A stretch of DNA of 64,000 nt from Verrucomicrobiaceae bacterium. GTDB lineage: Bacteria; Verrucomicrobiota; Verrucomicrobiia; Verrucomicrobiales; Verrucomicrobiaceae. This document shows, in pieces, positions 17,419 to 46,014 of the stretch. Numbering within the stretch: position 1 is the first letter of the stretch; every line of letters begins with the position of its first letter. The DNA is taken from contig JAIBCL010000012.1 of assembly GCA_019694165.1 (NCBI GenBank), positions 62,001 to 126,000 of the forward strand. Reading direction: 5' to 3'. The notes beneath the pieces were generated by a model, which saw nothing but the letters and a program-made list of their open reading frames with translations, had not been told where the DNA came from and searched no databases. Position numbers and translations under genes: made by a program.

Positions 17419-18441
17419 ATGCTCCCCCAACTCGACCAGCTCAAATCCGAGGCGCTTGCCGCGCTCGAAAATCTCAGTGACGAAACCTCGCTGGAGAATT
17501 TCCGCGTCGCTTATCTCGGGAAAAAAGGCAGCCTCACCGCGCTCAGCGCCGGCATGAGGGACGTGCCGCCGGATCAGAAAAAGGAAGTCGGCGCCAAGCT
17601 CAACGAGGTGCGTGAAGCGATCACCTCGGGCCTCACTGCGCGACAACTCGCTCTGCAATCCGCGAAGGACGCCGCTGCAGTGCAAGGCATCGACGTCACG
17701 CTGCCCGGTCGCCCGGGCTTCGGCACCGGCAGCATTCATCCGCTCACGACCATTCGCGATCTCGCCGTGCGCACGCTTCGCCGCATGGGTTTCGTTTTGG
17801 CCGACGGCCCGGAGATCGAGACCGAGTGGCATTGCTTCGATGCATTGAACACGCCCGCCGATCATCCGGCACGCAACGAAAGCGACACCTTCTATTTGGC
17901 CGACGGCCGCCTGCTCCGCACTCACACCTCCAGCGTGCAGATTCGCACGATGGAAACGGTGAAGCAGTTGCCCGTGCGCATCATCGCTCCCGGCGCGGCG
18001 TATCGACGCGATGAAATCGACGCGACGCATCTCAGCGTCTTCAATCAGCTCGAAGGCCTCTTCGTCTCCGAAAACGTCAGCCTCGGCGACCTCAAGGGCA
18101 CGCTCGAATTCTTCTTCCGCGAAATCTTCGGCCCGCAAACTGTCGTGCGCTTTCGTCCGCACTTCTTCCCTTTCACGGAGCCGAGTTTCGAAATCGACGT
18201 GAAGCTCGAAGCGAAGGGCAAAGAGAGCCGCTGGATCGAGATTGCCGGCTGCGGCATGGTCGATCCCGCTGTCTTCGCCGCCGTCAGCAAAACGCGCGGC
18301 GACAATCTCTTCGACCCCGAAAAAGTCACCGGCTTCGCCTTCGGCCTCGGCCTCGACCGCCTCGCCATGATCCTGCACGGCATCACGGATATTCGGCATC
18401 TCATCGAGAACGACGTGCGCTTCTTGGGTCAGTTCGCGTGA
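17419..18441 (+). CDS. pheS: Phenylalanine-tRNA ligase alpha subunit
   Basis: 340 residues, normal for PheS. An N-terminal coiled-coil domain (about 1-85) is followed by the class II core, with motif 2 in HTSSVQIRTM and the FRPHFFPFTEPSFEID stretch. The GCGMV segment, motif 3 (GFAFGLGLDRLAM) and the C-terminal DIRHLIENDVRFLGQF are also present. With PheT it forms the alpha2-beta2 enzyme that charges tRNA-Phe in the cytoplasm. pheT normally follows directly; here about 510 bases holding an inverted-repeat element separate the two. Confidence 0.96.
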   Translation: MLPQLDQLKSEALAALENLSDETSLENFRVAYLGKKGSLTALSAGMRDVPPDQKKEVGAKLNEVREAITSGLTARQLALQSAKDAAAVQGIDVTLPGRPGFGTGSIHPLTTIRDLAVRTLRRMGFVLADGPEIETEWHCFDALNTPADHPARNESDTFYLADGRLLRTHTSSVQIRTMETVKQLPVRIIAPGAAYRRDEIDATHLSVFNQLEGLFVSENVSLGDLKGTLEFFFREIFGPQTVVRFRPHFFPFTEPSFEIDVKLEAKGKESRWIEIAGCGMVDPAVFAAVSKTRGDNLFDPEKVTGFAFGLGLDRLAMILHGITDIRHLIENDVRFLGQFA

Positions 18442-18446
18442 GTTTT

Positions 18447-18480
18447 GACAGGATTACAGGATTTGCAGGATTCACAGGAG
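18447..18480 (+). repeat. Left inverted repeat of the GxxExxY element
   Basis: Its internal structure is an imperfect tandem of the unit acaggatt (three to four variants), in the orientation opposite to the right end. The left and right ends differ at one base in 34. Confidence 0.9.
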
Positions 18481-18488
18481 GATTGGTT

Positions 18489-18902
18489 ATGCTCGCCATG
18501 AAGGAACTGACTCAGCAGGTGATTGGCATGGCGATGAAGATTCACCGGAAGATGGGCAGCGGCTTCGTGGAGTCGGTCTATCACAACTGCATGATCGTGG
18601 AATTGAAGAAGGCGGGCATTCCTTTTGAATCGAAGAAGAAACTCGATGTCTTCTACGAGGGCGTGAACGTCGGCCAGTTCGAAGCTGATCTCGTCATCAT
18701 CGTGGACTCCATGCTGATCCTTGAACTCAAAGCCGTGGAGCACATCGCAAAGGCCCACGAAGTCCAAGTCGTGAACTACCTCGCCGCCTCCAACATCGAA
18801 GACGGACTCATCATCAACTTCGGCGCACCGAGCCTCGAAACCAAACGCAAGTTCCGAACCTACCGCCCGAAATCCACCTCACCGCTCCGCCTCCAGGACT
18901 GA
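18489..18902 (+). CDS. GxxExxY-family protein (PDDEXK-like)
   Basis: 137 residues from the ATG at 18489; ATG 18498 is also possible. A GTG start at 18438 would translate the repeat and is not favoured. The family motif is seen as GFVESVY (Gly-x-x-Glu-x-x-Tyr). The nuclease-like core follows as ADLVIIVDSMLILELKA, which fits the D-(E/Q)-x-K pattern of PDDEXK folds, with a late Gln/Tyr helix (QVVNYLAAS) and LIINFG. The biochemical activity of this family is not established to my knowledge. Such genes are frequently found beside acaggatt-type repeats in related phyla. It is the sole gene in the element between pheS and pheT. Confidence 0.85.
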   Translation: MLAMKELTQQVIGMAMKIHRKMGSGFVESVYHNCMIVELKKAGIPFESKKKLDVFYEGVNVGQFEADLVIIVDSMLILELKAVEHIAKAHEVQVVNYLAASNIEDGLIINFGAPSLETKRKFRTYRPKSTSPLRLQD

Positions 18903-18912
18903 ATCCAAAACA

Positions 18913-18946
18913 CTCCTGTCAATCCTGCAAATCCTGTAATCCTGTC
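18913..18946 (-). repeat. Right inverted repeat of the GxxExxY element
   Basis: The reverse complement of 18447-18480 with one mismatch. It ends 4 bases before the pheT start codon and therefore forms its immediate leader. Confidence 0.9.
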
Positions 18947-18950
18947 CAAA

Positions 18951-21389
18951 ATGAAGCTTTCCCTCTCCTGGCTCACCACCCACCTCGACCTCAGCGGCCG
19001 CACGACGGCGCAGCTCTCGGATTTGCTCACGTTCGCGGGCATCGAGGTCGAAGGTATCGAAGAAAAGGGCGTCGATAGCGACAAGATCGTCGTCGGCCAG
19101 ATTCTCGAATCGGTGCAGCATCCGAATGCCGACCGTCTCTCCGTCTGCCAGGTCGATGATGGCTCGGGCAAGCCGCGCCAGATCGTCTGCGGCGCGAAGA
19201 ATTACAAAGTCGGCGACAAGGTGCCCGTCGCGCTGCCTGGCGCGATTTTGCCCGGCAACTTCGAGATCAAGGAAGGCCAGCTCCGCAAGGTCGCCTCGAA
19301 CGGCATGATGTGCAGCGGCAAGGAACTCGGCCTCGGCGATGACCACAGTGGATTGCTCATCCTCGATCCCACACTGCCCACTGGAAAGCTCTTCAAAGAA
19401 CTCGTGCAACCCGACGTGCAGTTCGATCTCGAGATCACGCCAAATCGCTCCGATCTGCTCAGTCATCTCGGTCTCGCGCGCGAACTCGCCGCACTCACCG
19501 GCCTGCCGCTCAAAGGCGAGCGCGATCACGCCAAGACCTCCACCAAGCTGAAAGCCGCGAAGCCCGACGAAGTCGAGATCAAGGCCGCCGACGGCTGCCC
19601 CTTCTACACCGCACGCATCATTCGTGGCATCAAAGTCGGCCCCAGCCCCGATTGGTTGCGCCAGCGACTCGAGAGCGTGGGCCTGCGACCGATCAACAAC
19701 ATCGTCGATATCACGAACTATGTGATGTTCGAGATGGGCCAATCGCTGCATGCCTTCGATCTCGCGAAGCTCAGCGGCGGCATCGTCGTGCGCTACGCAG
19801 CCGAGGGCGAAAAAATCCTCGCTCTCGATGGCAACGAATACGCCCTCGTCACTTCGGATCTCGTCATCGCCGATCAGCAGCGACCCGTCGCCGTCGCGGG
19901 CGTCATGGGTGGCGAAGAAACCGGCGTCACCGACACCACCACCGACATCCTGCTCGAGTCCGCCTACTTCACGCCATCCGTCGTGCGTCGCACCGGTCGT
20001 CGTCTCGGACTCAGTTCCGACTCCAGCTATCGCTTCGAGCGCGGCATCGACCCGCAGCAAGTGCAAGGCGGCTCCGAATTCGCGACCAAGCTCATCCTCA
20101 CCATCGCTGGCGGCACCGCCGAAGACATCACGCTCAGCGCTGGCGAGATTCCCCAACTCGTCGGCGAAATCGAACTCGACGAAGACCGCGCGCATCGCCT
20201 GCTCGGCATCCCCGATTTGAACACCGACGAAGCGCACGCCATTCTCGAAAAACTCGGCCTCAGTAAAGCGGACACTCCTGTCCGCTTCGCACGCGCTGCG
20301 GACAAGAGTGTCCGCGGTACTTCCGTCTGGCAGATTCCGAGCTATCGCCTCGATCTCCAGCGCTCCGTCGATCTCGTCGAAGAACTCGCCCGCGTCATCG
20401 GCCTCGAACGAGTGCCCTCGCGCAATGTCGCCGTCTTCGCCGCCGGAGACGCCGCCGACAAAACGTACGACCAGGCCATGCAACTCCGCCACGCCCTCGT
20501 GCATCGCGGATTCAACGAAGCCCAGACGCTCCGCCTCATCTCCAACGCCCAGCTCACCGACAGCCTCGGCATTGCCGATGCGGCGAACGGCAGCGTGCCC
20601 GTGAAAAATCCGCTCAGCGAAGATCACACGCATCTCCGCCCCAGTATCACGCCCGGCCTCATCGCCACCGCCGCGCTGAACATCCGCCAGGGAGCCGCCC
20701 GACTCCGCTTCTTCGAAGTCGGTCGCGTCTTCCTCAAGCTGCCGAACGGCACCACACGCGAAGAAGATCGTGTCGCCATTCTGATCAGCGGTCCCGTTTC
20801 ACCCACGAGCTGGAGCGATGCCGATCCGCGCATCGCCGACCTCTTCGATCTCCGCGGCGCCATCGAGTCCCTCCCCGGCCTCGGCAGCATCGAGATCAAG
20901 CGCGGCAACGACAACAGCACCTTCCTGCTCAACAGCGAAATCCGCAGCGGCAATCGCGTGCTCGGCTGGCTCGCGCAGCTTCATCCCGCCCGCGCGCGGC
21001 AGATCGATGCGCGCCATCCCGTGTATGTCGCCGAACTGCTCCTCAGCGCGCTCCGACAAGGCAGCAGCGGACCCGCGAAATTTGAGGAACTGCCGAAGTT
21101 CCCCGCGATGACCCGTGATGTCGCCATGGAAGCCCCTGGCGATCTCGCGAACCAAAAAGTCGCCGCCTATTTCTCCGGCCTCAAAGAACCGCTCCTTATC
21201 AAAGCCGAAGTCTTCGACGTCTTCGCCGATCCCACCGGCACGAAGATGGCCAACGACCGCAAATCCCTCGCCTACACCCTCACCTACCGCTCCCCCGAGC
21301 GCACCCTCGAGACCCAGGAAGTCGATCTCGCCCACGGCCGCGTCCTCGCCGGTCTCGAGAAAGTGCTGCCGGTTACGATTCGGAAGTAG
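18951..21389 (+). CDS. pheT: Phenylalanine-tRNA ligase beta subunit
   Basis: 812 residues, normal for PheT. The order is an N-terminal tRNA-binding (EMAP-like) domain (about 39-150), the B3/B4 editing region, B5, the catalytic-like core and a C-terminal anticodon-binding FDX-ACB domain (about 720-812). Landmarks include VCGAKNY, ITPNRSDLLSHLGLARELAAL and DITNYVMFEMGQSLHAFD. The B5 region between LGLS and the IPSYRLDL motif carries an extra stretch of about 20 residues (about 439-458) encoded by a pair of REP palindromes, read in frame. The start codon lies 4 bases after the right end of the GxxExxY element. Confidence 0.95.
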   Translation: MKLSLSWLTTHLDLSGRTTAQLSDLLTFAGIEVEGIEEKGVDSDKIVVGQILESVQHPNADRLSVCQVDDGSGKPRQIVCGAKNYKVGDKVPVALPGAILPGNFEIKEGQLRKVASNGMMCSGKELGLGDDHSGLLILDPTLPTGKLFKELVQPDVQFDLEITPNRSDLLSHLGLARELAALTGLPLKGERDHAKTSTKLKAAKPDEVEIKAADGCPFYTARIIRGIKVGPSPDWLRQRLESVGLRPINNIVDITNYVMFEMGQSLHAFDLAKLSGGIVVRYAAEGEKILALDGNEYALVTSDLVIADQQRPVAVAGVMGGEETGVTDTTTDILLESAYFTPSVVRRTGRRLGLSSDSSYRFERGIDPQQVQGGSEFATKLILTIAGGTAEDITLSAGEIPQLVGEIELDEDRAHRLLGIPDLNTDEAHAILEKLGLSKADTPVRFARAADKSVRGTSVWQIPSYRLDLQRSVDLVEELARVIGLERVPSRNVAVFAAGDAADKTYDQAMQLRHALVHRGFNEAQTLRLISNAQLTDSLGIADAANGSVPVKNPLSEDHTHLRPSITPGLIATAALNIRQGAARLRFFEVGRVFLKLPNGTTREEDRVAILISGPVSPTSWSDADPRIADLFDLRGAIESLPGLGSIEIKRGNDNSTFLLNSEIRSGNRVLGWLAQLHPARARQIDARHPVYVAELLLSALRQGSSGPAKFEELPKFPAMTRDVAMEAPGDLANQKVAAYFSGLKEPLLIKAEVFDVFADPTGTKMANDRKSLAYTLTYRSPERTLETQEVDLAHGRVLAGLEKVLPVTIRK
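20268..20315. repeat. REP pair inside pheT
   Basis: Two 18-base palindromes, gcggacactcctgtccgc (20268-20285) and gcggacaagagtgtccgc (20298-20315), each have 7-bp arms and a 4-base loop, and the two are inverted relative to each other. The same palindromes occur beside the RAYT gene at 45215-45998. They are translated in frame as about 16 residues. Confidence 0.9.
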
Positions 21390-38848: not shown

Positions 38849-40114
38849 ATGATCGACCGCGTCCGCTTGCGCTCCAATCAATGGCGCAAACTGCGCGGCA
38901 TCGTCATGCATCTGGCGACGAGCGACTCGTTCTATGGCCGTCGTTTTCGCGAGTGGGGCGTGCGCACGATGGCGATGAACCGGCTGGAGGATTTCGTCGC
39001 AAAGATTCCGCCGACGGTGAAGGCCGACATTTTGCAGGATCGCATCGAGCATCCGCCCTTCGGCACGAACTTGATGAAGCCGCTCTCGCATTACACGCGC
39101 TTCTGCGCCACGAGCGGCACCAGCACCGGCCAGCCGATGGCGTGGATCGACACGCCGGAGAGTTGGGAGACGATGCTTGCGTGCTGGCGACGCGTGTATG
39201 AAGCCGCCGCGCTGGAGAAGGGAAAGGATCGCCTGCTCTTCGCCTTCTCGTTTGGCCCCTTCCTCGGTTTCTGGACGGCCTTTGAAGCAGCGGCCAAAGA
39301 TTATCTCGTCATCCCCGCGGGCGGACTCTCCAGTCAGGCACGACTCGAGGCAATGGTGCGCTATGGTGTCACTGTTTTATGCTGCACGCCCACGTATGCG
39401 CAGCGCCTCGGAGAAATGATCGGCGACGCCTCGGGCATCGAGCGACTTGGCCTGCGCGTGCGGAAAATCATCGTCGCCGGTGAAGTCGGCGGCAGCATTC
39501 CGGAGGTGCGGAAGCGCATCGAGTCACTGTGGGATTGCGAAGTCTTCGATCATCACGGCATGACCGAGGTCGGCCCCGTGAGCCACGAGCTTCCTGGTCA
39601 TCCCGGCACGCTTTGCGTGATGGAGGACGCCTACTTTGCCGAGGTAGTGAATCCCGATACGCTCACCGAGGTCGCGGAAGGCGAGTGCGGCGAACTCCTT
39701 CTCACCAATCTCGACCGCACCGCCTGTCCCCTGCTCCGCTATCGCACGGGCGATTGGGTGCGAAAGCGCATCATCGACGGACGCCTTTGCCTCGAAGGCG
39801 GCATGCTCGGCCGCATCGATGAAATGGCCGTCATCCGCGGCGTGAACGTCTATCCCAGCGCCATCGAAAACATCGTCCGCGAATTCCGCGAAGTCGGCGA
39901 GTTCCTCATCGAGCAACGCAATGTGCACGGCATGGAGGAGATCGAGCTTCTCGTCGAGATCGACGGAAACATCGCCAAGGGCCTGCTCAAGAAAATCGAG
40001 AACAAGCTCCGCGACACCCTTCATCTTCGCGTTCCCGTGAAGGTCGTCGAGAAAGGCTCGCTGCCGCGGAGCGAGTTCAAGGCGAAGCGGTGGCGGCGCG
40101 TAAACGCAGAATGA
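38849..40114 (+). CDS. PaaK-like AMP-forming acyl-CoA ligase
   Basis: 421 residues from the ATG at 38849. The adenylate-forming motif appears as ATSGTSTGQP, followed by FGPFLGFW, DHHGMTEVGPVS and RYRTGDWV, with a C-terminal phenylacetate-CoA-ligase-like domain beginning near VNVYPSAIENI. It activates an aryl or alkyl carboxylate with ATP and CoA. The usual PaaK start region is shortened. The stop codon falls inside the first unit of the atgacgaat-type repeat at 40111. The substrate is unknown. Confidence 0.85.
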   Translation: MIDRVRLRSNQWRKLRGIVMHLATSDSFYGRRFREWGVRTMAMNRLEDFVAKIPPTVKADILQDRIEHPPFGTNLMKPLSHYTRFCATSGTSTGQPMAWIDTPESWETMLACWRRVYEAAALEKGKDRLLFAFSFGPFLGFWTAFEAAAKDYLVIPAGGLSSQARLEAMVRYGVTVLCCTPTYAQRLGEMIGDASGIERLGLRVRKIIVAGEVGGSIPEVRKRIESLWDCEVFDHHGMTEVGPVSHELPGHPGTLCVMEDAYFAEVVNPDTLTEVAEGECGELLLTNLDRTACPLLRYRTGDWVRKRIIDGRLCLEGGMLGRIDEMAVIRGVNVYPSAIENIVREFREVGEFLIEQRNVHGMEEIELLVEIDGNIAKGLLKKIENKLRDTLHLRVPVKVVEKGSLPRSEFKAKRWRRVNAE

Positions 40115-40198
40115 CGAATGTGGAATGACGAACGAACCGCACGTCAGCCACTCGCCGCATAACATTCGTCATTCCTCATTCGTAAATTCGTCATTCCC
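40111..40198. repeat. atgacgaat-type inverted repeat element
   Basis: atgacgaatgtggaatgacg begins at 40111, and its complement, built of attcgtcatt units, lies at about 40164-40197. The two halves can fold on each other. The repeat fills the whole gap between the ligase stop (inside the repeat) and the LolD-type gene. The same family occurs inside the FtsX-type gene at 44362-44463. Confidence 0.75.
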
Positions 40199-40882: not shown

Positions 40883-40948
40883 GGCGCAGGTCCGTCATGC
40901 GTTTGCACCTTCAACAGCTCGCTGTTTTCTCAAAGCCGCCTCGGAGCT

Positions 40949-41054
40949 TGAAGGCCAACGGCTTTCTGTCTTTAAGCCCAGGGTTGGAACAACCCTGGGT
41001 CCAGCGAGGCATCAACGAACCTCCTCGCGGGTCAACCCCAACGGGGTTGCGTCC
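40949..41054 (+). repeat. Left palindromic end of the first RAYT element
   Basis: Palindromes seen: cccagggttg/caaccctggg arms about a 3-base centre, and caacccc/ggggttg about aac. The block tgtctttaagcccagg (start 40967) and the block caaccccaacggggttg (start 41033) recur inverted at 41569-41655. Confidence 0.85.
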
Positions 41055-41085
41055 ATCGCACGAAAATCGCACACACCGTTCCCGC

Positions 41086-41541
41086 TCAATCCCACACATA
41101 CGCCTCGTCCCATTTCTCACCGTGCTTCGTCAGCAGCTTGCGGTACTCATCTTGAAACGTGACCACGCGGTGATGCGCTTCCTGTGTTTCGATGTATTGC
41201 ACCACATCAGGCACCTTCGACTCAGAAACCGAAAAACAACCGTAGCCAGCCTGCCAATGGTATTGCGCGAACAAGCCGCCACGCTGCTGGATCCAGTCGG
41301 TGGAGACTCGCTTCACCTCCTTCACAAACTCCGCGATGGCAATGGTGCGCGACAAGGTTGTCAGCAAATGAACGTGATCGGCCACGCCACCGACGATGAT
41401 CGGAAGGCAGCCGAGCGATTTGGCACACCCTCCCAGATAAGCGTGCGTCTCCGCACGAAAAGCCGCGTCGTGAAAAACAGGTTCGCGTCCCTTGGTGGAA
41501 AACACGGTGTGGATGACAACTCGGGCGATGGATTGTGGCAT
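41086..41541 (-). CDS. IS200-like (Y1/HUH) transposase
   Basis: 151 residues. The HUH motif is DHVHLL, and the catalytic Tyr candidate lies in VVQYIETQE, as in TnpA of the IS200/IS605 group. The start PQSIARVVIHTVFSTKGR is typical of a subgroup that travels alone beside palindromes. The enzyme nicks single-stranded DNA at hairpins via a phosphotyrosine. It sits between matching inverted ends and separates a LolD-type ATPase gene from its permease gene. Confidence 0.88.
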   Translation of the reverse strand: MPQSIARVVIHTVFSTKGREPVFHDAAFRAETHAYLGGCAKSLGCLPIIVGGVADHVHLLTTLSRTIAIAEFVKEVKRVSTDWIQQRGGLFAQYHWQAGYGCFSVSESKVPDVVQYIETQEAHHRVVTFQDEYRKLLTKHGEKWDEAYVWD

Positions 41542-41568
41542 GGTTGGACTCTGTGGTCACCGCACGGC

Positions 41569-41675
41569 GGACGCAACCCCGTTGGGGTTGCTCTGAATCA
41601 TACCATCCGTGGCGAAACGGCCCCCAGGGTTGTTCCAACCCTGGGCTTAAAGACACAAGCCCGTTGGGCTTGAAA
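41569..41675 (-). repeat. Right palindromic end of the first RAYT element
   Basis: The inverted counterpart of 40949-41054, sharing the 22-base and 33-base blocks exactly, with a divergent middle. It ends 5 bases before the FtsX-type permease start and so forms its leader. Confidence 0.85.
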
Positions 41676-41679
41676 TCAC

Positions 41680-44600
41680 ATGACCCTCATCCTCCAATCC
41701 CTCCGCCACTACTGGAAAGGCCACCTCGGTCTTCTCTTCGGCGCGTTTCTTTCCTCCGCCATCCTCAGCGGCTCGCTCGTCATCGGCGATTCCGTCCGCG
41801 CGAGCTTGAAGCGCGTGTCGGAACTCCGACTCGGCAAAATTCAGTCGGGACTCGTCGGCGGTGATCGCTGGTTCACCGAAGCCCTCGCCACCAAAGCCGG
41901 CGCAGCACCGCTCATCCAGATGAGCGGCTCCGCCAGCGTCGCAAACGGCACCGCTCGCGCCAATGGCATTCAAGTGCTCGGCGTGAACGACGAATTCTGG
42001 AAGCTCAGCCCCAGCGGCAAACTCATCGCGATTGCCGACGACGAACTCGCGCTCAACGAGCCGCTCGCCCGCAAACTCGGCGTCAAAGTCGGCGACACCG
42101 TCATCGTCCGCGTCGAAAAACCCAGCGCCATCTCCCGCGACGCCCCGCTCTCCGGCAGCACGAACGAGCAAGTCACCCTCCGCCGCAAAGTCGTCGCCGT
42201 CATCTCCGCGAGCAACTTTGGAGCCTACCAGCTCACCGCCTCACAGCGCACACCGGACACGGTTTTCCTGTCGCTGAAGAACCTGGCGTTTCAGGTGGAG
42301 AAGGAGGGGCGGGTGAATGCGATGCTGAACGGTCCTGCAACCTCTACCACAACGGTTATCGCAAACACAGAGGTTTCCATCTTCGGTCTCAAACTGCCTT
42401 TCACGTTCCAGCAGTCGGATGATCTGCCGCCTGACACAGAAGCCCCAGCCGCTGCCATACGCGATCATTCCTCGCTCGAAGACTTCTCCCTCAAACTTAC
42501 CCGCATCTCCGCCCCCAAACCCGAATGGGAGATCAGCACCGACCGCGTCTTCCTCGACGAAGCCATCACCGCCAAGCTCCTCAAGCAACCTGGAGCCTAC
42601 GGCGTGCTCACCTACCTCGTGAACGGCATCACGTCCTCGAAAGGCCGCACGCCTTATTCGATGGTGACGGCGACGAACGGCTTGAAGAGTAGCCCTCTCG
42701 CTCCGCGAGAGGCACCTTCGACGAACGCTCAAGCTCAAAACTCCGCTTCACCGACCAACGAATCCACAAAGCTCCTCTCGCGGAGCGAGAGGGCTACTAT
42801 CACTCAGTGGCTCGCCGAAGATCACAACCTCGCCATCGGCGACACCTTCGACGTTCGCTACTTCGTCGTCGGCCTCGGGCGCGAACTGAAGGAGGAGAAA
42901 GCCAGCTTCACCGTCGGCGAGATCATTCCGATGAACGATCCGCGCGTCACGAAAGCGTGGACACCCGATTTCCCCGGCGTCTCCGACGTGGACAATTGCC
43001 GCGACTGGGATCCTGGCATCCCGATGGACACGAAGGCCATCCGCGACAAGGACGAGAAGTATTGGGACGATTACAAAGGTGCGCCGAAGGTCTTCATTCC
43101 GCTCGAAGCCGGACAGAAGATTTGGAGCAATCGCTTCGGTCGCTACACCGCCATCCGCTTCGCCGACGCCGGCCAGAGCGAGAAGCAATTGCGCCAACAA
43201 CTCGTCAGCCAGCTCTCGCTCGCCGACATCGGACTCGTGCCGCGCGATTTCAAATCAGAAGCCGTGGCCGCAGCCAAAGGCAGCGTCGATTTCGGCGGTC
43301 TCTTCATCGGCCTGAGCATGTTCCTCATCGCCGCCGCGCTCATTTTTGCCGCGCTGCTCTTCCTCTTCACCCTCGAACGACGCGCCCCGCAGATCGGCCT
43401 TCTGCTCGCGACGGGCTGGACCACGAAACAAGTGCGCCGCTCCATCATCGGCGAGGCCGGACTCGTCGCCATCATCGGCAGCGCGCTCGGCCTCTTCGGC
43501 GGTGCCGCCTACACGAAAGCCGCGCTCGCCGGACTCGGCGGCGTCTGGTCCGGTGCCGCGCAAGGCCTCGAACTCATCTATCGCGCGAATCCCGTCACAC
43601 TCGCCATCGCCTTCGTTTCCTCACTCGCCGTCGCGTTGCTCACCATCTGGCTCGCGAGCCGGAAGCTCTTCAAAGTGCCAGCCAAAGATCTGCTCGCGGG
43701 CGAGATTCAAGGAGTGACCCCTTCAAGCAGTCACAAGAAAAAGCCGACGACTGGAAGTCGCCGTTCCCTGATCACCGCCGTTGTTTGTTTTCTCGGCGCG
43801 ATCGTCCTCGCACTCGCCGCCGGCAAAGCCAAGAACGCCGAGGAACTCGCCGGCATGTTCTTCGGTGCAGGCATGCTCCTCATGATCGCCGGACTCGCGC
43901 TCGCTTCGCGCTGGATGAAACGCAGCGGCTCCGGCCAGCGACACGCGGATTCCGTCTGGCAGATCGGCATCCGCAACATCGCGCGCCGTCCTTCGCGCAG
44001 TCTCGCCGTGCTCGGCATGATGGCCGGCGGCATTTTCCTCGTGATGGCCGTGAACGCGTTCCGCATGGGTGTCGGCCCCGATGCCGCACGCCGCGACTCC
44101 GGCACCGGCGGCTTCGCCCTCATCGGCGAGTCATCGCTGCCGATCTACGAAGACCTCACCGCCAAAGCCGGTCTCGATGCCTTCAGCCTCGACGAAGACC
44201 TCATGAAGCAAGCCAGCATCGTCCCCTTCCGCATCCGCGAAGGCGACGACGCGAGCTGCCTCAATCTCAACCGCGCGCAGAATCCGGTGCTCGTTGGTGT
44301 TGATTCAAAAAAGCTCGCGGGACGGTTTTCGTTTGTGGCAGGCGGATGGGACGAACTTCAAATGACGAATGACGAATTCCGAATGACGAATGGAAAGGCG
44401 AACAAGACGCCCGCAAACGAGACCGGTTCATCATCCGACCTTCGTCATTCGTCATTCGTCATCCCCGCGATCGCCGACCAAGCGACTGCGATGTGGGGCC
44501 TTGGCAAAGGTGTGGGCGATACCGTCGAGTATCAGGACAGCAAAGGCGGCAAGTTTCAGGTGAAGCTCGTCGGCCTTCTCGCCGGCTCCGTGCTGCAAGG

Positions 44601-45904: not shown

Positions 45905-45918
45905 GGCGCGGAAAGTAC

Positions 45919-45998
45919 GGCGGACACTCCTGTCCGCCAGTGGTATTTGAAACCGGACAAGAGTGTCCGGTTTACGGCTTGCGGACAGGAGTGTCCGC
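45919..45998. repeat. REP cluster upstream of the RAYT gene
   Basis: Three palindromes in 80 bases: ggcggacactcctgtccgcc (45919-45938), a 24-base one centred on ccggacaagagtgtccgg (45950-45973), and gcggacaggagtgtccgc (45981-45998). They alternate in orientation. The last ends 17 bases before the rhaD-type start codon. Confidence 0.9.
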
Positions 45999-46014
45999 TT
46001 TACCTAACGGTCCG

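Follow-up and report, generated by a model that had tools for sequence, protein, structure and literature searches.

A predicted Cas4-like nuclease gene and its cognate short-unit palindromes as a candidate two-part repeat system resident between pheS and pheT

The pheS-pheT gap in the window analysed here (the whole stretch of DNA, 64,000 nucleotides, from a Verrucomicrobiaceae bacterium) raises the question of what a single nuclease-like gene between two inverted repeats represents, and how it came to lie there. The initial annotation described a compact element that fills the gap, with inverted ends built as arrays of short units, a single gene with a GxxExxY motif and a PDDEXK-like core, and no transposase; each part of this description proved sound. 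The host genes, both on the plus strand and outside the element, are pheS upstream (17419-18441; Pfam tRNA-synt_2d, 4.7e-87, and Phe_tRNA-synt_N, 3.3e-22) and pheT downstream (18951-21389; B3_4, 9.2e-73, with tRNA_synthFbeta and FDX-ACB). They are 509 nt apart, and the element (18443-18950) occupies all but one base of this gap. Its left arm (18443-18480, plus strand) reads TTTT + GACAGGATT-A-CAGGATT-TG-CAGGATT-CA-CAGGAG, an array of 8-9-bp CAGGATT units; the right arm (18913-18950, minus strand; reverse complement TTTGGACAGGATTACAGGATTTGCAGGATTGACAGGAG) abuts the ATG of pheT. The arms are inverted repeats identical at 36 of 38 positions (two mismatches), or at 33 of 34 over 18447-18480 and 18913-18946, and both follow the pattern GACAGGATT-n-CAGGATT-nn-CAGGATT-nn-CAGGA. 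Two occurrences of their 23-nt core pattern were found in the 64-kb window, each at this element, and none in 100 dinucleotide shuffles. The arms start TTTT(A)GACAGG and carry neither a GTAG nor a CGTC tag.

Between the arms lies the GxxExxY gene (18489-18902, plus strand; ATG at 18489, stop codon at 18900-18902), with 411 nt encoding 137 amino acids. It is the only gene in 18443-18950; profile searches gave it no match to any transposase, and Y1_Tnp in particular went unmatched in the Pfam search. No cas genes stand beside it, its neighbours being pheS and pheT. At the innermost unit of the left arm, a Shine-Dalgarno-like AGGAGG (18476-18481, plus strand) stands 7 nt before the ATG of the gene. 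The two arms could pair with each other in mRNA, and such pairing, together with this putative ribosome-binding motif, may have a regulatory consequence.

The protein is a clear member of TIGR04256 (GxxExxY; 1.9e-39, 134.6 bits against a cut-off of 35) and of PF13366 (PDDEXK_3; 2.4e-38, 131.5 bits against a cut-off of 22), family labels that cover the protein only and not the repeats. The GxxExxY motif is G25-F-V-E28-S-V-Y31, and E28, D67, E79-x-K81 and Q93-xxx-Y97 are invariant in an alignment of 51 relatives, so catalysis by the protein is probably required. No solved relative was detectable by sequence search of the PDB. The AlphaFold model of the 137-residue chain (pLDDT 92.1, pTM 0.83) matches best the structure 4ic1 (SSO0001; Z 10.2), which we take to be a Cas4-family protein, and the other top matches are likewise PD-(D/E)XK nucleases. 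QxxxY is a hallmark of Cas4 and RecB-type nucleases, and both the predicted fold and the D...ExK...QxxxY arrangement of the active site resemble theirs. The model thus points to a Cas4-like PD-(D/E)XK nuclease, which differs from Cas4 in being shorter, in having no CRISPR context and in its marginal Cas4 profile matches by sequence (E 0.01-0.03). A PADLOC search for defence-system membership also returned marginal matches alone, with Cas4 at E 0.012.

Was the element inserted recently? Among 62 family members with a parsable pheS-pheT junction, 24 (our genome included) hold a GxxExxY gene in the same gap, in one case in reverse orientation, and nearly all of these genes have imperfect CAGGATT-type arrays at their ends. 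The dN/dS of the resident gene is 0.03-0.11 in the pairs measured, which indicates purifying selection. In view of the residence at family level and of this ratio, a fresh insertion between pheS and pheT was rejected. For the comparison of occupied and empty sites that had been proposed, the nearest relative (G001; pheT 92% identical) supplies the empty site, having no GxxExxY gene in the gap and a pheS and pheT that overlap by ATGA; against it, the TGA...ATG separation at the occupied junction fits a duplication of 3-4 bp but is ambiguous, and no target-site duplication is established. Plasmid and phage collections yielded few and distant GxxExxY members and no close pairs of occupied and empty sites.

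The remaining family members have a short pheS-pheT gap, or one that holds gene-less palindromes built of quite other units. Such palindromes of other units (ACCACTAATG, ACCACGAATG, GACAGAAGAATGGGGACAG, CCGCAGAGG) were noted in the gaps of L102, L103, L118, L120, L126, L127, L134 and L140. Since the gap takes in palindromes of several units, it is a hot spot in which several repeat families have landed. In the gene tree, the label for pheS-pheT changes five times, with at least two of the changes forced by well supported branches, and includes a separate Opitutaceae group; the nuoF-nuoG label changes four times, with at least three forced. From the residence in the family, the purifying selection and the repeated label changes we conclude that the pheS-pheT copy is, as judged by sequence comparison, an old family-level resident of a recurrent landing place. 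The gene is largely vertically inherited under purifying selection and may therefore have a domesticated role.

Taken further, this would make the gene a host function throughout: a resident regulator or repair nuclease whose arrays, as dispersed binding sites or as RNA hairpins, serve a structural or regulatory purpose and are not mobile DNA. The low dN/dS and the family-level residence between pheS and pheT agree with that account, and so do the strong hairpins described below and the placement of the elements, whose neighbours on the two sides are co-directional in 50 of 68 cases, at median distances of 11 and 17 nt. The same placement in short co-directional gaps fits an insertion that is tolerated only in gaps. 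We regard domestication as the whole explanation as improbable, because sites differ between sister species, because the palindromes stand at gene ends (in some cases giving the upstream gene its stop codon, the TAG within TTTAGACAGG) and not in promoters, and because the gene and its arms are found at unrelated loci over phyla whose labels are scattered on the tree.

The initial annotation had anticipated that the same ends would recur in this genome and beside the gene in relatives, and both expectations hold. Sequence searches of the genome revealed about 13 further array sites. Most consist of two arms, oriented outward-inward like those of the gene-bearing element, some 25-40 nt apart, about 100 bp in total and intergenic; some are single arms. 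No gene was present inside the dispersed copies inspected, and the gene-bearing clade-A unit (clade A being that of the window's gene) is single-copy in the genome, most copies of its ends being gene-less hairpins. Six other TIGR04256 matches, one of them under the family cut-off, occur in the genome, and those examined have different ends or no such ends. At two gene-less copies, the orthologous site in the sister species is empty or different. At one site (G000:C1:34-361, L026, in our genome), arms of alternating orientation recur in tandem about every 144 bp, resembling a BIME-like cluster of the CAGGATT-type repeat.

The gene-less copies fold as strong DNA hairpins (z -5.6 to -7.6). When arm was compared with arm in the four alignable hairpins, the unit cores differed at 5 of 112 positions and the spacers at 16 of 20 (p 5e-13), the sites having been found by core similarity, a criterion that may enrich for matching cores but not for mismatched spacers. 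Arms that agree in their cores and differ in their spacers are not mere copies of each other, and the unit is their constrained part, as expected if the unit is the part that is recognised. An origin of the gene-less copies by internal deletion was considered and rejected: the loops inspected share no visible sequence with the ends of the gene.

These copies bear on a reading in which the protein is a homing-type nuclease that cuts gene-less palindromes or empty gaps, repair from the gene-bearing copy by arm homology then installing the gene in the loop; the repeats would thus be its targets and the scars left behind, and not elements that the enzyme disperses. One ORF of nuclease fold, without a transposase and exactly in the loop of a palindrome, is well suited to this, as is the recurrence of free-standing genes in the same short intergenic gaps (pheS-pheT, nuoF-nuoG). 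Homing alone, however, leaves unexplained why gene-less palindromes multiply and are numerous mainly where the cognate gene occurs; the loops of those inspected, which have no visible sequence in common, would need another origin. We consider it unlikely, though of the alternatives it is the one we take most seriously.

Is the pairing of gene and arms peculiar to this locus? We analyzed inverted similarity in the 300 nt either side of 171 GxxExxY genes, with clade membership assigned by an E-value threshold. Flanking inverted arrays were detected at 84 of 103 clade-A genes and, among the other single-domain GxxExxY genes, at 39 of 57, compared with 9 of 132 control genes. At a score >16 the counts were 65/103 and 32/57, compared with 3/132 control genes of the same loci and 0/123 random positions. 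With the threshold applied, inverted arms went undetected at about a fifth of clade-A genes. Two-domain GxxExxY proteins, several of which have palindromes only upstream, were left out of these arm-count conclusions; among long GxxExxY proteins of about 250-300 aa (L188, L189, L190, L186), the palindrome was seen on the upstream side only, with units such as GGCAGAATGATGAAGGGCAGAATC.

Clade A spans more than ten phyla, which are intermingled on the tree, and gene and arms recur together at unrelated loci across these phyla. Its arms share the theme TTTTAGACAGGATTAACAGGATT, which appears as GACATAATAACATAAG in Prevotella, as GACAGGATAACAGGAT in a multi-phylum subclade and as GACAGAATGAACAAAATG in one Spartobacteria group; related genes of several phyla share an arm sub-variant, GACAGGATAACAGGAT being an example. 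Other clades have units of their own: CACGGAATACACGGAA in clade B, GCCGAAAGAAACGAAAG in C, ATCCACAGATTACGCAGATT in D, CACGGAGGCACGGAG in E, GGAAGGCAGGAAAGCAGGAA in F and ATTCGCGGATATTCGCG in G. At G187:C9:75863-75959, a clade-B-type unit has expanded to an extreme degree, into a long, near-perfect tandem array of CACGGAAGC units with a 9-bp period. The more identical two proteins are, the more similar are their arms (Mantel rho 0.65; best of 500 permutations, 0.15). Hence the picture of one self-contained element drawn by the initial annotation has to give way to a wider phenomenon, in which GxxExxY clades each have their own repeat family.

The same coupling was found at the level of whole genomes. 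Clades A and B were compared in 190 genomes from the order, each species being represented once and many of the genomes being incomplete. At least three A repeats were present in 25 of 31 genomes with a clade-A gene and in 10 of 159 without it (p 8e-18), and at least three B repeats in 25 of 29 genomes with a clade-B gene and in 35 of 161 without it (p 4e-11), the genomes not being phylogenetically independent. Over the same 190 genomes the crossed tests were null (A gene against B repeats, p 0.67; B gene against A repeats, p 1). Kinship was handled by restriction to family and genus: the pattern persisted within the family and inside one genus (A gene and A repeats there, 12/13 compared with 3/26). 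Median numbers were 9 and 10 repeats, whereas the gene itself supplies only two arms. Some genomes have repeats without the gene, or the gene with few repeats. In this sample, the presence of a clade-A or clade-B gene thus predicts the repeats of that clade but not the other's.

Two accounts that detach the gene from the repeats can be weighed against these data. According to the first, short in-operon gaps gather all kinds of repeats, those seen here belonging to unknown insertion sequences, and the gene lands among them by chance. The gene-free pheS-pheT gaps of relatives, which often hold palindromes of other units (L102, L103, L118, L120, L134), are what such a coincidence would look like. 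Yet it gives neither the same unit on both sides of the gene, nor clade-specific units across phyla, nor the double dissociation of A and B, and such flanks occur at only 3 of 132 control genes; it is very improbable. According to the second, the repeats are MITEs, GxxExxY is cargo, and the conventional transposase behind the CAGGATT-type ends, of the DDE or HUH kind, is lost or unfound. Inverted ends with short gene-less copies do form the classical MITE layout, and some genomes carry repeats without the gene, but GxxExxY genes with such arms on both sides number over a hundred, with no transposase noticed there, no target-site duplication was found, and the type of unit follows the GxxExxY clade. 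We give this account hardly any weight.

The position of the gene in a palindrome loop, the clade-specific pairing, the dispersed gene-less copies and their presence or absence between sister species, all documented at the level of sequence, would be accommodated by a two-part system in which a Cas4-like nuclease and its cognate short-unit palindromes are dispersed in a REP/RAYT-like manner, the pheS-pheT copy being the gene-bearing member. We favour this reading, with a probability of roughly 0.6; the mobility of the gene-plus-repeat system is something that we infer. The GxxExxY protein would bind the CAGGATT units, act on the palindrome as a hairpin, cruciform or duplex, and cut at or next to it; host replication or repair might then copy palindromes, and occasionally the gene, into new gaps. 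The pheS-pheT copy would be a long-term resident that keeps the nuclease available, and the gene-less copies its non-autonomous dependants. A broader reading extends this to the entire GxxExxY/PDDEXK_3 family, as a superfamily of PD-(D/E)XK nucleases, spread over many phyla and convergent with RAYT, in which every clade disperses palindromes of its own class (CAGGATT, CACGGAA, CACAGATT, CGAAAGAAA, CACGGAGG and others). Its chances seem to us evenly balanced.

REP/RAYT is the closest known parallel. In REP/RAYT, the gene is flanked by inverted repeats, gene and repeat coevolve, and the presence of the gene correlates with the abundance of its cognate repeat (Nunvar 2010, PMC2817692); intergenic repeat doublets (REPINs) form hairpins that contain no gene (Bertels and Rainey 2011, PMC3116915), and REP repeats carry a GTAG or CGTC tag at one end (PMC3733652). 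The GxxExxY system shares two inverted cognate repeats around the gene, the correlation of the gene with its own repeats, the gene-less intergenic hairpins and the coevolution of gene and repeat, a likeness of function only. RAYT is an HUH/Y1 tyrosine transposase (IS200-like), whereas GxxExxY is an unrelated, Cas4-like PD-(D/E)XK protein; the GxxExxY repeats are arrays of 7-9-bp units without a GTAG or CGTC tag, and they number about ten copies per genome, compared with more than a hundred for REP. Because the predicted enzyme is no tyrosine transposase and the tag is missing from the repeats, the system is not a member of REP/RAYT.

TIRtrons also place a small gene between inverted repeats, in their case a tyrosine transposase gene (TIRYT) between long ones, with TIR families dispersed as dimers (Di Nocera 2013, PMC3733652); they differ from the GxxExxY element in this transposase and in a GGGGWSAS-type TIR motif, and are not described as short-unit arrays. 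The window itself holds a probable TIRtron/RAYT-like comparator at 40948-41674, where a Y1_Tnp gene (41086-41541, minus strand, 151 aa; Y1_Tnp, 1.9e-19) is flanked by two nested inverted repeats, CAACCCCAACGGGGTTG and, outside it, one of 52 nt. MITEs and insertion sequences resemble the GxxExxY element in their inverted ends and short gene-less relatives; the element differs in having no transposase, in ends that are short-unit arrays and in that no target-site duplication is demonstrated.

Open-access papers mention GxxExxY or PF13366 in passing, and the passages concerned describe no cognate repeats; neither the repeat units nor the PDDEXK_3 name gave a match in that literature, most subscription journals lying outside the search. 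The system could be regarded as new in kind, because its enzyme superfamily and its repeat type both differ from those of every system named above, and on a stricter view it could also be taken as one of the REP/RAYT kind. As to the undescribed selfish element that the initial annotation proposed, the compact unit of gene plus ends stands and we found no description of it in the open literature; it is better understood as a REP/RAYT-type partnership, its selfishness and its spread by the nuclease being presumptive.

To our knowledge, the enzymes linked to date with intergenic palindromes in bacteria are tyrosine (HUH) or DDE transposases. If the favoured two-part reading is true, a nuclease of the restriction/Cas4 fold that coevolves with its own repeats would open a second, independent path by which palindromes disperse, and a large protein family annotated only by its motif would gain a function. 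Should the family-wide reading also be true, a large part of the intergenic palindromes in environmental bacteria that now lack an explanation would be accounted for. The favoured reading would also offer many natural enzyme-site pairs, in which a small nuclease and a short recognition unit vary together, making specificity testable.

Further palindromes were observed in the window. One, GCGGACACTCCTGTCCGC / GCGGACAAGAGTGTCCGC, lies within the pheT reading frame (20262-20321) and has a second member at 45915-46003. Gene-less palindromes of another short unit, ATGACGAATGACGAAT, occur at 44361-44462 and 40114-40183, and a perfect 25-nt inverted repeat, AGTAGCCCTCTCGCTCCGCGAGAGG, with arms 61 nt apart, is located at 42688-42798.
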